Origin: Chloroflexota bacterium
GTDB taxonomy: Bacteria > Chloroflexota > Dehalococcoidia > Lucifugimonadales > Lucifugimonadaceae
DNA: 64,000 bases
Reading direction: 5' to 3'
Assembly: GCA_002718415.1 (NCBI GenBank)
Contig: PBEM01000006.1
Location: 36,009-100,008, forward strand
The translations under genes and the position numbers were made by a program. Positions within the stretch are counted from its first letter, which is position 1; every line of letters starts with the position of its first letter. This document shows, in pieces, positions 15,997 through 61,703 of the stretch. Under the pieces are notes generated by a model. The model did no database searches. It was not told the DNA's origin and worked only from the letters and a program-made list of their open reading frames with translations.

Positions 15997-16714
15997 TCTT
16001 ATTTAAATTATATTTACCTCTTAAATGATTAATCTTTATATTAATTACTTCTATAAATGCTCCAATACCTTTACTTAACGTTACTTTACTGCCTTGTGAA
16101 TGATGCCATTCTATGCCGGTTTCACATATTGAATAATTTAATTCCTTTGCAATAAAAATGCTTTCAACATCAAACGCAAACCCTTTAATTAATTGTTTGG
16201 AAAAAATATTTTCTGCTACCTTATCACGAAATAACTTAAATCCACACTGTGTATCCTGAATTTCTGAAAAAATTAAAATCTTAACAAATATATTAAATAA
16301 TTTTCCATATAAATGTCTGTAAAAAGGTTCATCATATCTATTAGATCCAATGGCCTCTCTTGAACCTATAATTAAATCATATTTATTGGTATAAGAAATA
16401 AATCTTTCAATATTCCCTATAGGCATAGATAGATCTGCATCACATAAAAATCTCCACTCTCCATTAGCTTCAAGCATCCCTTTAGCAACAGCATCACCTT
16501 TCCCAAAGTTTTTTTTAGAAATAATTAGTTTTACTCTATCATCCAACTTAACTATTTTAGAAACTTCATTTCTAGTTTTATCGATTGAACCATCATCAAC
16601 GACAATAATTTCCCATTTATATTTTTTCTTGTCAAAGTAATCTATTAATTCATTTAGTGTTTTATTAATCCTATTAGATTCGTTGTATGCTGGAATAATA
16701 ATACTGAGAAACAT
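15983..16714 (-). CDS. GT2 glycosyltransferase, dolichyl-phosphate beta-glucosyltransferase-like
   Basis: 243-aa family 2 transferase. LSIIIPAYNESNRINKTL, IIVVDDGSIDKTRNEV, GKGDAVAKGMLEANGEW and the catalytic FLCDADLSMP, then DTQCGFKLFRDKVAENIF, match the ALG5 / undecaprenyl-phosphate glucosyltransferase pattern (the CGFK block is typical). No TM domains. It is paired with the DPM1-like gene by overlap. Donor and acceptor are inferred from the family only. Confidence 0.87.
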   Translation of the reverse strand: MFLSIIIPAYNESNRINKTLNELIDYFDKKKYKWEIIVVDDGSIDKTRNEVSKIVKLDDRVKLIISKKNFGKGDAVAKGMLEANGEWRFLCDADLSMPIGNIERFISYTNKYDLIIGSREAIGSNRYDEPFYRHLYGKLFNIFVKILIFSEIQDTQCGFKLFRDKVAENIFSKQLIKGFAFDVESIFIAKELNYSICETGIEWHHSQGSKVTLSKGIGAFIEVINIKINHLRGKYNLNKNDYT

Positions 16715-34980: not shown

Positions 34981-35415
34981 TTAATTAGCAACTATATTTA
35001 CAAGTTTCCCCTTAATAAATATTTTTTTTCTAATAGTATTATTTATTAGAAATTTTTGTACTTTTTTACTCTCAACTGCTAATCTCAGGGCTTCTTCTTC
35101 TTTAATTGAACTTGAAACTTTTATTTGATCTCTAACTTTTCCATTAACTTGTATAACCAATGTAATATTTTCAGAAATGGTGTACAAATCATTATATTCT
35201 GGTACATTTTGTAAATGAATAGAATTATTATTGCCAATTCTATTCCAGATTTCCTCTGATATATAAGGTGCAATAGGTGCCATATGCAATATTAACCTTC
35301 TGATTGATTCATTCCAAAGTTTTTTAGAAATTTTAGCTTCTTCATAAATCTTATATAAAAAATTAGTGTATTCCATCATTGAAGCTATTGCTGTATTAAA
35401 TTTAAAAGATTCCAT
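34981..35415 (-). pseudogene. leuS: leucyl-tRNA synthetase, C-terminal fragment after in-frame stop
   Basis: 144-aa continuation of leuS in the same frame as the upstream part, separated only by TAA (35419-35421) and one GAT codon. MESFKFNTAIASMMEYTNFLYK is the start of the anticodon-binding domain, and HMAPIAPYISEEIWNRIG and VQVNGKVRD-type IQVNGKVRDQIKV are the conserved C-terminal LeuRS blocks. An ATG stands here by chance or as a reinitiation site; no real SD precedes it. Treat it with the N-terminal part as one interrupted gene (815 codons in all) unless reinitiation or a sequence error is shown. Confidence 0.85.
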
Positions 35416-35418
35416 ATC

Positions 35419-37428
35419 TTAAAGTATTTTTTTAGTGGTTTTATGAGAAAAAACAATTAAAGTTTCATCCTTTTTTTGGTCTCCAACATCATTAAATTTT
35501 TTAATACTGATACTGATAGCCCAAACCCTATTTAACCATCGATATATACCATTAATTCCTGAATCAGACCAGTCCCCTCCTTGATCCCATGGACCCAAAA
35601 ACATTAAATACGATCTTAATGTATCAGAGCCATATTTTTGGATTACAGGATCAGGATTTAAAGGATTTGATCTTTTTGAAATTTTTTTATGATCTTTAAT
35701 CAACATTCCTTGATTGAAAAGTTTTGTATATGGTTCACTTATATTTACATAATTTAAATCTCTTAAAGCTTTGGTAAAAAACCTAGAATACAATAAATGC
35801 ATTACTGCGTGTTCCGCCCCGCCCATATACTGGTGAATTGGCCCCCAATTTATTAGATCTTCAGACCTAAAAGGAACATCTTTTGAGTCAGGACTCATAA
35901 ATTTGAAATGGTACCAAGAAGAATCCACAAACGTATCCATTGTATCCGTTTCTCTTTTAGCTTCATCACCACATTTTGGACATGTAGTATATAAAAATTC
36001 TTTATTAAGAGTCAAAGGAGATTTTCCAGTTGGATTAAATTCAACATTATCCGGCAATAAAACTGGTAGTTGATCAAAAGGCACTGGAACTGTTCCGCAT
36101 TGTTCACAATAAATTATTGGAATAGGTGTACCCCAATATCTTTGCCTAGAAATTAACCAATCTCTTAAATGATAAGTAATTGTCCTTGTTCCTAATTTTT
36201 TTTCCTCTATGAAATCAGCTATTGTATCTTTAGCAAGATTATTATTTAGTCCACTAAATTCTCCAGAATTAATTAAATTTCCTTCTTCCACCCAAGCTTC
36301 ATTAATATTAAAATTTTCCTCAGGTTTTACTACTACCCTTATTTCTAAGTTGTATTTTTCAGCAAAAATATAATCTCTTTGATCATGTGCAGGTACACCC
36401 ATTACAGCACCTGTACCATAACTAGATAATACATAGTCTCCAACATAAATAGGAATACGTTCATTGTTCAGAGGATTGATACAATACGCTCCTGTAAATA
36501 CTCCTGTTTTGTCTCTTTCAGTTGAAGTTCTTTCTATCTCAGAAATTCTTGCCGCATTTTCTATATAAGAATATACTGAATCTCTTTGTTCATCTTGGAT
36601 TATAGATTTCAAGATTTTATGTTCAGGAGATAACACAATAAAAGTGACCCCAAAAATAGTATCTATACGCGTAGTAAATGTTTCAATAAATTCACCTTCA
36701 ATAAATTCATCTAAATCAAATTTAATGGTCACACCTATAGATTTTCCTATCCAATTTCTCTGCATCATTTTTATTTTTTCTGGCCAATTTATCTTGCCCA
36801 TATCTAAAAGTTCTTCTGCATAATCAGTAATACGAAAAAACCATTGAGGCAATTCTTTTTTTAAAACTTCTGTACCGCATCTTTCACAACTACCATCCTT
36901 AACCTGCTCATTAGCAAGTGTTGTTTGATCTTTTGGACACCAATTTGCTAATCCAGAAGCCCTATATGCCAAATTATTATTATAAAATTCTAGAAAAAAA
37001 TGCTGATTCCATTTGTAATATTCTGGATCAGAAGTCACTAGTTCTCTTGACCAATCATATGATGTCCCCATAGATCTAAATTCTTTTCGAAAATTATTAA
37101 TATTTTCTAATGTCCATTTAGAAGGATTAATCCCATTTTCTATTGCTGCATTTTCTGCTGGTAGACCAAAAGAATCAAACCCTTGAGGATGCATTACATT
37201 ATAACCTTGCATTCTACGAAATCGAGCGTGAGCATCAGCTGGGGCAAATGCATACCAGTGACCAATATGTAAATTACCAGAAGGATATGGAAACATGCTT
37301 AATGCAAAATAATTTTCCTTGCCTTTAACATTATTTTTTGCATTATATATTCCATCTTCCTCCCACTTAACTGTCCATTTGTTCTCTATTAAAGACGGAT
37401 TATATTTCTCAAATTTATCAGACTCCAA
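35419..37428 (-). CDS. leuS: leucyl-tRNA synthetase, N-terminal/catalytic part ending at a premature TAA
   Basis: 669-aa part of LeuRS: HIGH motif in GNLHIGHW (residues 54-57), zinc-type cysteines WCPKDQTTL...CERCG, an editing CP1 domain (TTRIDTIFGVTFIVL, GVPAHDQRD), a second Cys pair YCEQCG / CPKCGDEA, and the KMSKS-equivalent KKISKR (about residue 581). The frame ends at FSHKTTKKIL-TAA, where intact LeuRS continues with an E/D residue and then the anticodon-binding helices found in the next ORF in the same frame. LeuRS is essential and no second leuS is in this window. Confidence 0.92.
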   Translation of the reverse strand: MESDKFEKYNPSLIENKWTVKWEEDGIYNAKNNVKGKENYFALSMFPYPSGNLHIGHWYAFAPADAHARFRRMQGYNVMHPQGFDSFGLPAENAAIENGINPSKWTLENINNFRKEFRSMGTSYDWSRELVTSDPEYYKWNQHFFLEFYNNNLAYRASGLANWCPKDQTTLANEQVKDGSCERCGTEVLKKELPQWFFRITDYAEELLDMGKINWPEKIKMMQRNWIGKSIGVTIKFDLDEFIEGEFIETFTTRIDTIFGVTFIVLSPEHKILKSIIQDEQRDSVYSYIENAARISEIERTSTERDKTGVFTGAYCINPLNNERIPIYVGDYVLSSYGTGAVMGVPAHDQRDYIFAEKYNLEIRVVVKPEENFNINEAWVEEGNLINSGEFSGLNNNLAKDTIADFIEEKKLGTRTITYHLRDWLISRQRYWGTPIPIIYCEQCGTVPVPFDQLPVLLPDNVEFNPTGKSPLTLNKEFLYTTCPKCGDEAKRETDTMDTFVDSSWYHFKFMSPDSKDVPFRSEDLINWGPIHQYMGGAEHAVMHLLYSRFFTKALRDLNYVNISEPYTKLFNQGMLIKDHKKISKRSNPLNPDPVIQKYGSDTLRSYLMFLGPWDQGGDWSDSGINGIYRWLNRVWAISISIKKFNDVGDQKKDETLIVFSHKTTKKIL

Positions 37429-57790: not shown

Positions 57791-57867
57791 GGGCGGTTAG
57801 CTCAGCTGGCTAGAGCGCGTCGTTGACATCGACGAGGTCACAGGTTCAAGTCCTGTATCGCCCACCA
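57791..57867 (+). tRNA. tRNA-Val (anticodon GAC)
   Basis: 77-nt cloverleaf: acceptor GGGCGGT / ATCGCCC, D arm with AGCTCAGCTGGCTAGAGC, anticodon stem CGTCG/CGACG with loop TTGACAT (GAC), T arm GGTTCAAGTCC, discriminator A and encoded CCA (57865-57867). It starts 3 nt behind the rpoC stop, so it may be co-transcribed with rpoBC. Confidence 0.97.
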
Positions 57868-57955
57868 GCATAAAATCACTCAAAGAAAGTTAGATTTTTA
57901 ACTACCTAGTTGTTTCATACTCATAAGTTTAGATGTTGGATGATCATATAAATTT

Positions 57956-58264
57956 TTAAATAAAAAATTCAAATACCCAAATTATTGTTAGTCCAACCAA
58001 AAGTGTAAGTACTATTGATTTGGATAATAATGCAACAAACATTGCAATCAGAGCAGCAAAAATATTAGGATTATTTAAAATAATAGAATTTTCTTCATTA
58101 ATTAATATTGAATTTATAATGATTGGTGTTAAAACAGCTATGGATACATAACCTAATCCACCTTGAATAAAATTTGGTAAAGTTTTCGGCATTATCTTAG
58201 ATAAAGGTAAAAATCTAGTACAAAAAGTTAGTACCCCAGAAAAAATAATAACTGTCCAAATCAT
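57956..58264 (-). CDS. azlD: branched-chain amino acid exporter small subunit AzlD
   Basis: 102-aa membrane protein with three to four TM segments, starting MIWTVIIFSGVLTFCTRFLPL, typical of AzlD (TRxLP motif). It abuts azlC, its partner. Together AzlCD-type pairs export branched-chain amino acids or related compounds in characterised bacteria. Confidence 0.88.
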   Translation of the reverse strand: MIWTVIIFSGVLTFCTRFLPLSKIMPKTLPNFIQGGLGYVSIAVLTPIIINSILINEENSIILNNPNIFAALIAMFVALLSKSIVLTLLVGLTIIWVFEFFI

Positions 58265-58954
58265 TTATTTTGTCCTTATTTTATTAGAAATTAACATACC
58301 AAACAAAATAGCAATTAATGCAGAAAAAATAATCCATAAATTCCAGGGCAAATCTTTAAAAGCTACTGATAACACTGCACTAGTTATAAAAACACTAAAT
58401 TTTATTTTATCTTTAATTGAAATTACTACTATTGCTATAAAGGAAAGCGGAATAGCAAATTCTAAATTTAGAGATTCTGGAATGAAATGCCCTATGAATA
58501 TTCCTAGAAAAGTTGCAATTTGCCATGATGTCCATAAGGTTAGTCCACTACCTAATAAATGGTAATGCATATTTTTTGTTTTTTTCTTTTCAGAAAAACG
58601 CTTATATGAAACTGCATAGGCTTCATCTGTAATTAAGTATGCTAGTATTAATCTCCATCCAAGAGTTAAATTCTTTAAATATCCCGATAAAGAAATCCCA
58701 TATAAAATATGGCGTAAATTTACAATTCCTACAGTACCTACAATGATTGATGCAGGAGTAGAAGTAAATATTAGTTGAGCAAAAACAATTTGACTGGCAC
58801 CAGCAAATACTATTGAAGATAGTAGAAAAGTTTGTATATTACTTAGCCCGCACTCTATACCTAAAATTCCAAATGCAAGTCCAAAAGGAAAAACACCAAT
58901 TTGTAAAGGGATTTCTCCAAAACATCCATCCTTGAATTCTGAGAATTTTGTCAT
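58265..58954 (-). CDS. azlC: branched-chain amino acid exporter large subunit AzlC
   Basis: 229-aa membrane protein with about six or seven TM segments. FKDGCFGEIPLQIGVFPFGLAFG at the N-terminus, FAGASQIVFAQLI and NLRHILYGISLSGYL are AzlC hallmarks, followed by LAYLITDEAYAVS. azlD follows without a gap. Substrate specificity is inferred from the family. Confidence 0.92.
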   Translation of the reverse strand: MTKFSEFKDGCFGEIPLQIGVFPFGLAFGILGIECGLSNIQTFLLSSIVFAGASQIVFAQLIFTSTPASIIVGTVGIVNLRHILYGISLSGYLKNLTLGWRLILAYLITDEAYAVSYKRFSEKKKTKNMHYHLLGSGLTLWTSWQIATFLGIFIGHFIPESLNLEFAIPLSFIAIVVISIKDKIKFSVFITSAVLSVAFKDLPWNLWIIFSALIAILFGMLISNKIRTK

Positions 58955-59024
58955 TATAAAAAATTATCGCCCACTATTATGAATCATAGATCTAAGTGGG
59001 CGATATAAATTTCCAATTAATGAA

Positions 59025-59669
59025 TTATGATTTGCTTCTAATTACAGCTATTCCTAGTAAAGTACTAAATATAACCCAACCAAACCAACTAAGCATTCCC
59101 GTTATATCTTGCATAGTAAACACATTAACAATATTGGCTATACCAACTATAAGAAAACCAAAACTTACAATATTTAATAATATCGCTGGTTCTAATTTAT
59201 TCTTTGCATCCCTAATAGCTCTACCTAAAGCTATTAAAGCTATACCAAACACTATATCCATTGCACCTAAATCCGTAGTACCTGCTACAAATATAGTCAA
59301 AGCTTCTGCAGGTTCAGTTCCATGATAAGAAAGTGCACTAACAAAAGAATTAGCGCCAAATAAGTTAATTGTCCCAGAAATTAAAAGTAGTAAAGCTGAA
59401 AGGTTACCTAGAAACGGATTATCACTATCAGCACCAACACCTCTAGAAAACATAACGAAAGAGGCAACTACAAAGGTAAAGCTCACTCCAGCAATACTGA
59501 TTAATAATTTATTAATTGTTGCACTTTCTGCTATTTTATCAAGAAAAGCTTTAGGGCCATCATCTCCACCTCCTCCAACTCCCATCCAAATATACATCCA
59601 TAAAGCTGTCATAAGAATTGGTAAGATAGCTAAACTCCATCCAATAAATGTTTTTTGTGTAATATTCAT
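59025..59669 (-). CDS. uncharacterised integral membrane protein (214 aa)
   Basis: I do not recognise this family. About six hydrophobic segments: 10-30 (after an N-in start), 55-75, 90-110, 133-152, 158-178 and 185-205. A glycine-rich hydrophilic loop GVGGGGDDGPKAFLDKIAE follows TM1. No obvious catalytic motif. GGGG lies 10 nt before the ATG. It has its own promoter region, divergent from the 46-aa peptide and sulfatase genes. Coding is credible because of its length, codon use and SD. Confidence 0.8.
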   Translation of the reverse strand: MNITQKTFIGWSLAILPILMTALWMYIWMGVGGGGDDGPKAFLDKIAESATINKLLISIAGVSFTFVVASFVMFSRGVGADSDNPFLGNLSALLLLISGTINLFGANSFVSALSYHGTEPAEALTIFVAGTTDLGAMDIVFGIALIALGRAIRDAKNKLEPAILLNIVSFGFLIVGIANIVNVFTMQDITGMLSWFGWVIFSTLLGIAVIRSKS

Positions 59670-59818
59670 AAAATAATCCCCTTCTGTTTTATAAAATTAT
59701 AATTAGCATTGTAGCAGTACTCTAAAATATTCAATAAATAAATTAATATATTATTTTAAAATTAAGACAATTTACTAGTAAAATATTTTTAATAATTATC
59801 CTAATAACTCAGTAATAA

Positions 59819-59959
59819 ATGAAACAATTTAAGTGGAATGGCATACCGGTAAATATACCAAACTCAAATAAAGAATGGATTTTTTTTATATTAATTACTT
59901 TTTTATCATCGATTATTTCAATAGTAATAATAATTAATATCTTATTTTTAAATAATTGA
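59819..59959 (+). CDS. small membrane protein (46 aa), uncharacterised
   Basis: Open frame starting ATG at 59819 with a hydrophilic front (MKQFKWNGIPVNIPNSNKEW) and one long hydrophobic helix of about 22 residues (IFFILITFLSSIISIVIIINIL). It lies in front of the sulfatase and its stop overlaps a TTG that could start that gene. No convincing SD is seen. Isoleucine-rich AT-driven helices can arise by chance, so it is only moderately supported. Confidence 0.45.
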   Translation: MKQFKWNGIPVNIPNSNKEWIFFILITFLSSIISIVIIINILFLNN

Positions 59960-59967
59960 AAAATATA

Positions 59968-61605
59968 ATGCTAGAAAAAAAACCAAATATATTATTTATA
60001 ATGGCAGATCAAATGAAATCTTCTATTTTAAAGATGTATTCAGAAATTGGAATAGAATGCCCTCAATTAGAAAAACTTGCACGTGAAGGTGTACTCTACC
60101 AAAATGCATTTACCCCACATCCATTATGTGTCCCAGCTAGAACTTCTATGATGACCGGTAAATATCCACATAAAACTGGTTGCAGAAGAAATGAAACATT
60201 AATGCCTGAAAATGAATTACATGCTTTTAAAATTTGGAAAAAGCTAAATTATGTAACAGGATTAATTGGGAAAAATCACTGTTTTGACAAACAATCAGAT
60301 TTAGATTTGTTTGATGTAAGATTAGAAATATCACATAGAGGACTTCCAAGAAGTGGTTACAAAGGAGAAAATATTGGAAATAAAGGTATGGAATGGATCG
60401 TAGACGAAAAGTTAATTAATGAAGCTAATAATAATCGATTGGAAATGGGTATTTGGGATAAAACACACTTCTCTTCTGATACCCCCGAAGAATTATTTCC
60501 AACTTCATTAATTACAAAACAAACTGAAAAATTTCTAGAAGAATATTCTGCTGGAGAATTTGGGAAAACCGATAATCCTTTTTCATTATGGGTTTCTTTC
60601 CCTGATCCACACGAACCTTATATAGCTCCTTCTAGATACGTAAATATGTTCCCTTCAGAAAAAGTTGTTCTTCCTAATAATCGAGAAGATGAATTCACAG
60701 ATGGAACAGCCCCTGAAAGAAATAGATTATTGTATAAAATATTGAAACATAATACAAATTCTGAAGAAGAAATCAGATCTCAAATAAGTGTTTATCAAGC
60801 TATGACGAAATTTATTGACGACGGAATAAAAAAAATTATAGAAAAACTTGATACTTTAGGATTAAAAGAAAATACTATAATAGTCTTCACTTCTGATCAT
60901 GGAGATTTCATGGGAGAACACGGAATGACTGTTAAGGGAGGTGTGTTTTATGACTGTCTAGTAAAAGTTCCACTAATAATTTCTTGGCCAAATGGAAAAT
61001 TTGATACAGGAGTTATTGATGAATCTATGGTAAATACTATAGATATTTTACCTACATTATTATTTTTACAAGGTTTAGGGGATTTTAAGAATTTAGGAAA
61101 AGGATGGACTAATAACAATCAAAAGAAAGATAAATTTCTAAATGAATATGAAATGAGAAGTTTTGATGGAAAATTATTACCCTCCATTACAAATTCAAAA
61201 CCTTCGGAAGTTGCTTTTTCCGAATATGGCGCTGGAGGTCCTCAATATAAACTTGAAGATTTAAATAAAATAAATAAACCTTATGGTCATAAAACTCTAC
61301 TAGAAACACTTTGGGCAAGAGAATCAGAAGGAAAAAGAAGGATGGTAAGAACTAAAGATTGGAAATATATTACTGATATAAATGCAAAAGGCCATACTAT
61401 AAGTTCAGCTATTGATGGTGGACCTGGAGATATAGACGAATTATATGATCTTAAAAATGATCCATGGGAACTGTATAATATAGCCCAAAATCCTAAATAT
61501 AAAGAAGTTATTGTACAGATGAAAGAACATTTATTAGAATGGATGATAGATACTGAAGACTATAAACCAGTAGAAATACCAAATAAAATAGGAATAAATT
61601 TTTAA
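59968..61605 (+). CDS. sulfatase (Cys-type, formylglycine-dependent)
   Basis: 545-aa alkaline-phosphatase-superfamily sulfatase. The formylglycine motif is C54-V-P-A-R58 in PLCVPARTSMMTGKYPHKTG, so the Cys must be oxidised after translation. Metal-binding D14 in FIMADQ and D-H in TSDHGDFMGEHG (about residues 305-316) with the catalytic His are present, and the C-terminus has DWKYI and DELYDLKNDPWELYN, common in sulfatases. ATG at 59968 gives the classic MLEKKPNILFIMADQ; a TTG four codons upstream overlaps the 46-aa ORF. No signal peptide, so it is cytoplasmic as read. Maturation by the anSME at 42303 is a reasonable inference. Substrate (choline, sugar or aryl sulfate) is not readable. Confidence 0.93.
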   Translation: MLEKKPNILFIMADQMKSSILKMYSEIGIECPQLEKLAREGVLYQNAFTPHPLCVPARTSMMTGKYPHKTGCRRNETLMPENELHAFKIWKKLNYVTGLIGKNHCFDKQSDLDLFDVRLEISHRGLPRSGYKGENIGNKGMEWIVDEKLINEANNNRLEMGIWDKTHFSSDTPEELFPTSLITKQTEKFLEEYSAGEFGKTDNPFSLWVSFPDPHEPYIAPSRYVNMFPSEKVVLPNNREDEFTDGTAPERNRLLYKILKHNTNSEEEIRSQISVYQAMTKFIDDGIKKIIEKLDTLGLKENTIIVFTSDHGDFMGEHGMTVKGGVFYDCLVKVPLIISWPNGKFDTGVIDESMVNTIDILPTLLFLQGLGDFKNLGKGWTNNNQKKDKFLNEYEMRSFDGKLLPSITNSKPSEVAFSEYGAGGPQYKLEDLNKINKPYGHKTLLETLWARESEGKRRMVRTKDWKYITDINAKGHTISSAIDGGPGDIDELYDLKNDPWELYNIAQNPKYKEVIVQMKEHLLEWMIDTEDYKPVEIPNKIGINF

Positions 61606-61703
61606 TATGGATACTTATTTTATTTTATACAAATTTTCTGGCATTCTTTATTATCAATATTTAGGATAAACTTAATTTCAAATTCCCTTAATGGACAAAA
61701 TAT

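Follow-up and report, generated by a model that had tools for sequence, protein, structure and literature searches.

An in-frame TAA codon in the leuS gene of a single SAR202 draft genome

The leuS gene and its in-frame stop codon

The window analysed here is a stretch of 64,000 nucleotides (G000:C6:36009-100008) from a SAR202/Dehalococcoidia draft metagenome-assembled genome (MAG) of oceanic origin, G000, which comprises 1.06 Mb in 15 contigs and is estimated to be 74.29% complete and 3.17% contaminated. The nearest named relative of the window is MAG SP342 (PBDR01000025.1), and the other leuS matches came from SAR202/Dehalococcoidia, including Candidatus Lucifugimonas marina.

The leuS gene on the minus strand (37428-34981) is one unbroken frame apart from a TAA at 35421-35419; the true TAA is at 34983-34981, and from 37428 as far as this codon no further stop or frameshift was found. 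At the junction the sequence is HKTTKKIL-TAA-GAT-ATG-GAA (K K I L * D M E S F K F N T A I A), with GAT at 35418-35416 and ATG at 35415-35413 in the same frame as the TAA, so the initial annotation, which described parts of 669 and 144 amino acids separated by TAA-GAT, was correct in this respect. The features are as follows.

35422..37428, minus strand: upstream part of leuS, an ORF of 669 amino acids opening with TTG at 37428, which covers the catalytic core, the editing (CP1) domain, the signature HKKISKRS and the beginning of the anticodon-binding domain (TIGR00396, E = 1.2e-262)
35419..35421, minus strand: in-frame TAA, codon 670 of 815; GAA in SP342, and a stop in G000 alone among the family genomes with the region
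35413..35415, minus strand: ATG two codons past the stop, a possible reinitiation codon; Met is usual in relatives (DM[E/D]), and no Shine-Dalgarno-like motif lies upstream
34981..35415, minus strand: downstream part of leuS, an ORF of 144 amino acids with the remaining anticodon-binding domain and the C-terminal domain, ending at the true TAA (TIGR00396, E = 1.2e-27)

The homology to leucyl-tRNA synthetase (LeuRS) runs straight through the stop without an indel, as had been claimed: the upstream part matches positions 1-678 and the downstream part positions 708-842 of the 843 positions of TIGR00396. The upstream part, which holds the class I catalytic core, is sufficient alone to exceed the cut-off (873.9 bits versus 548.4). 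The HIGH-type motif (HIGH) and the KISK-type signature are common to the window LeuRS and its relatives, and the SP342 gene also has a TTG start. The signature in the window (35660-35700) is KISKRS, and the shorter form, KISK-R, is also found among close relatives. As sequenced, the anticodon-binding and C-terminal domains are not contained in one chain, whereas they are in all relatives. The open in-frame continuation of 145 codons, which is 80% identical to the C-terminal domain of a relative, is not a chance reading frame but the other half of leuS.

The junction in relatives and the constraint on both parts

The LeuRS of SP342 is continuous and shares 87% identity with that of the window over the whole length (88% in the upstream part and 80% in the downstream part). 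The junction codons are ATT TTG GAA GAT ATG in SP342 versus ATA CTT TAA GAT ATG in the window. The single-base origin proposed earlier, such as GAA to TAA, is therefore supported by the GAA of SP342, although the codon next to it is different too. A stop in the 163-residue junction region was found in none of the 66 other family genomes in which the region was found (75 genomes were looked at, and a few of the 66 matches are partial owing to contig breaks), and about 70 named SAR202/Chloroflexota loci were all open across the junction; a search for the junction in viral contigs gave no match. Two other genomes of the genus have an intact leuS of 818 and 832 codons, and each shows one leuS. Codon 670 is unconserved and encodes A, E, D, T, S, Q, G, N and other residues in relatives. 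By these alignments, the stop is private to one sequence and is located at a variable codon. According to the initial annotation, a sense codon in several close relatives would point to an assembly or sequence error. Every relative does have a sense codon, but none belongs to the same species, so that the comparison favours an error or a private mutation without proof.

We found no private change at columns with at least 95% conservation in the window leuS, other than those common to SP342. With G002 as the outgroup, the upstream part has 16 private changes in the window and 18 in SP342, and the downstream part has 5 and 6, respectively (Fisher, P = 1); the downstream part has therefore evolved under the usual constraint. 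Relaxed selection in the downstream part was considered and rejected; the C/N divergence ratio (1.70) was neither unusual among the other pairs (median 1.38, range 0.97-2.92) nor lineage-specific. Thus none of the marks of a pseudogene (other stops, frameshifts or relaxed substitution) was observed, and the leuS stop is either very recent, or harmless, or not real.

Premature stops and sequence quality of the drafts

A 68-kb contig of SP342 is syntenic with the window region. Among 55 non-overlapping genes common to both, leuS is the sole gene with a premature stop in this MAG, and therefore one error would suffice. The 272-kb contig C6 was also scanned for pairs of long ORFs in one frame with a single stop between them, with 70 open codons required on either side (so that stops near gene ends escape) and with TGA codons resembling selenocysteine sites set aside; leuS was again the only case. 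As 5.65% of the possible substitutions in leuS yield a stop, one stop event in the contig requires about 7e-5 wrong bases per site by our estimate.

SP342 has private stops of its own. Its rpoC gene has a TAG (G001:C26:52010-52012) at an otherwise conserved Trp, with an ATG immediately next to it, and this stop was absent in the present MAG and in the other genomes searched. A dehydrogenase gene has two stops, TAG and TGA, without an adjoining ATG (L130 about 16360-16425, G001:C26), and an acyltransferase-like gene on another contig has a private TAA (L144:489). Private nonsense codons are thus characteristic of these drafts. The isolate and contig names of SP342 fit the Tara Oceans draft set, which was assembled with Megahit and then with Minimus2 at 95% identity (PMC5769542). 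Single-base Ns occur in the initial 36 kb of contig C6, which suggests a merging of discordant sequences; no Ns are present in the window, and the remainder of the contig appears clean.

Two segments of the window differ from the syntenic contig in other ways. The 2.4 kb at 2869-5290 matches the initial 2.4 kb of the SP342 contig at 99.3% identity, compared with about 77% elsewhere, reflecting either a recent exchange or a chimeric contig end. About 3.8 kb directly after tRNA-Val (57791-57867), at 57868-61640, is missing in SP342 and contains genes which, judged from sequence alone, are AzlC/AzlD-like and sulfatase-like.

The in-frame TGA codons on contig C6, all outside the window, were considered as further errors, and this was dropped since one is conserved in all three genus genomes and two are at apparent cysteine positions. 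The conserved one lies in a CocE-like hydrolase (G000:C6:137571; LGPW-TGA-HGGMR; L148, L149 and L150), which has Cys (TGT) at this position in G007 and looks like an undescribed candidate selenoprotein; SelB was above the cut-off in G001 and G002. The TGAs in an OsmC-like protein (G000:C6:147979; ATGG-TGA-MLGTF) and a thioredoxin-like protein (G000:C6:117099; SDT-TGA-LVCK) are probable selenocysteine sites.

Origin of the stop codon and the alternatives

We consider that the leuS stop probably reflects a consensus error, or else a nonsense variant that has not become fixed, because it is absent from all 66 of the other family genomes with the region. The gene would be an ordinary single-chain SAR202 gene, and the TAA would be a single base substitution in this one metagenome-assembled sequence, arising either from a consensus or assembly error or from a nonsense allele in part of the sampled population, with a sense codon at position 670 in most cells. 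We infer that the organism in nature is not fixed for the TAA base. Several observations count against this reading: an ATG two codons downstream is expected by chance at about 4-5% of random stop-prone leuS codons, the rpoC stop of SP342 likewise has an adjoining ATG, the stop falls close to the end of a helix, where change is tolerated, and the window has no Ns and the remaining contig looks clean. That the stop is a nonsense mutation of dying or rare cells which became dominant by chance in the assembled reads seems very unlikely; the single-base Ns elsewhere on C6 suggest merged strain variation, but lethal alleles are expected to be very rare and should seldom win the consensus.

The incompleteness of the MAG, which lacks about a quarter of the genome, leaves room for a real stop in a lost leuS copy with a working leuS in the missing part. 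We regard this as highly improbable, since the two other genus genomes have a single leuS, the downstream part shows no decay, and the one further leuS in the bin belongs to an archaeal contaminant contig. This second LeuRS, on contig C1 (18.7 kb), is 47% identical over residues 7-576. The contig has a GC content of 54% versus 27-34% across the window, contains 210 scattered, mostly single Ns, and carries genes for archaeal-type RNA polymerase subunit D, uS4 and uS13. The gene is therefore not the backup copy that the initial annotation had allowed for, and the bin has no true second copy; nor was a similar second leuS found in any of the 40 relatives searched. Suppression, also offered earlier, fares no better. 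Low-level readthrough of a real stop, in which a near-cognate tRNA or suppressor would yield full-length LeuRS in sufficient amounts, would tolerate nearly any inserted residue at the variable codon 670 (A, E, D, T, S, Q and others), and the lineage recodes at least one TGA. Against this, no tRNA with the stop anticodon (TTA) was called among the 24 tRNA matches in the incomplete bin (a count which leaves aside the anticodon of one weak candidate, L127, not called by ARAGORN), two RF-1-family (RF1/RF2-type) genes, 353 and 368 codons long, are both intact, 42 of the 55 genes end with TAA as their normal stop, and the RNA after the leuS stop has no unusual structure (z = -0.29). Neither a suppressor tRNA nor the use of TAA as a sense codon elsewhere was thus seen in this incomplete bin, and readthrough is very unlikely.

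A real two-chain LeuRS, in which ribosomes halt at the TAA and reinitiate three bases on, at the ATG, and the chains of 669 and 144 amino acids assemble into an active enzyme, is unlikely, although more can be said for it. The ATG is in frame two codons past the stop, the downstream part is intact without lineage-specific decay, and a bare ATG may serve as a start, because a Shine-Dalgarno motif precedes only 13 of the 55 genes here (with rough start calls); none was found upstream of the ATG at 35415-35413. In the AlphaFold model of LeuRS (mean pLDDT 74.6, locally about 88-90), residue 670 is near the end of a helix (651-673), which is followed by a turn and another helix (677-697), and the break, 3 residues before the predicted helix end and ahead of the short turn, would be at a mild site. 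Split synthetases also have precedents in the Aquifex LeuRS, in Nanoarchaeum and in pheT of Altiarchaeales (PMC4975002). However, the stop is found in no relative, including the two others of the genus, the ATG encodes the Met usual in relatives and is therefore not an adaptation, and the break is within one domain, not between domains. The ATG codons beside the stops of leuS and SP342 rpoC are hints of reinitiation noticed post hoc, in two cases only. A more specific form, in which leuS was truly split by one nonsense mutation, with reinitiation at a pre-existing ATG and the break inside the anticodon-binding domain, so that we see a gene fission at birth with rpoC of SP342 as a second case, is likewise unlikely.

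The closest known likeness is the alpha/beta LeuRS of Aquifex aeolicus, which, like the window leuS, is in two pieces, one catalytic and editing and the other tRNA-binding. In Aquifex the two pieces are divided within the leucine-specific domain (Ma et al. 2006, as cited in PMC4975002), whereas the window leuS breaks further downstream, at codon 670 within the first anticodon-domain helix. The phmmer alignment of the window LeuRS to Thermus LeuRS lacks the segment Thermus 579-641, and by this alignment the segment that holds the Aquifex split is missing from the window LeuRS. The earlier claim that the two splits are at different places is thus supported, and the window split, if real, would be at a new site. 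The two subunits of Aquifex are established, whereas the window has one stop in one MAG, and no split common to related genomes was found in the family or the genus. The split phenylalanyl-tRNA synthetase beta gene of Altiarchaeales is likewise a broken synthetase in the draft genomes of an uncultured lineage; according to PMC4975002, its halves are on separate contigs in six genomes and were supported by mapped reads and several assemblers, in contrast to the leuS stop of one MAG. The rpoC TAG of SP342 resembles the leuS stop as a lone in-frame stop in an otherwise intact essential gene, found in no other relative, but the gene and the stop codon (TAG versus TAA) are different.

Nonsense codons in essential genes of single MAGs, both here and in SP342, should be taken as biology only when reads or a second genome support them. 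A real stop would represent a newborn split of an essential synthetase, and would indicate that two-subunit enzymes may arise when a single nonsense mutation falls next to an internal start codon.
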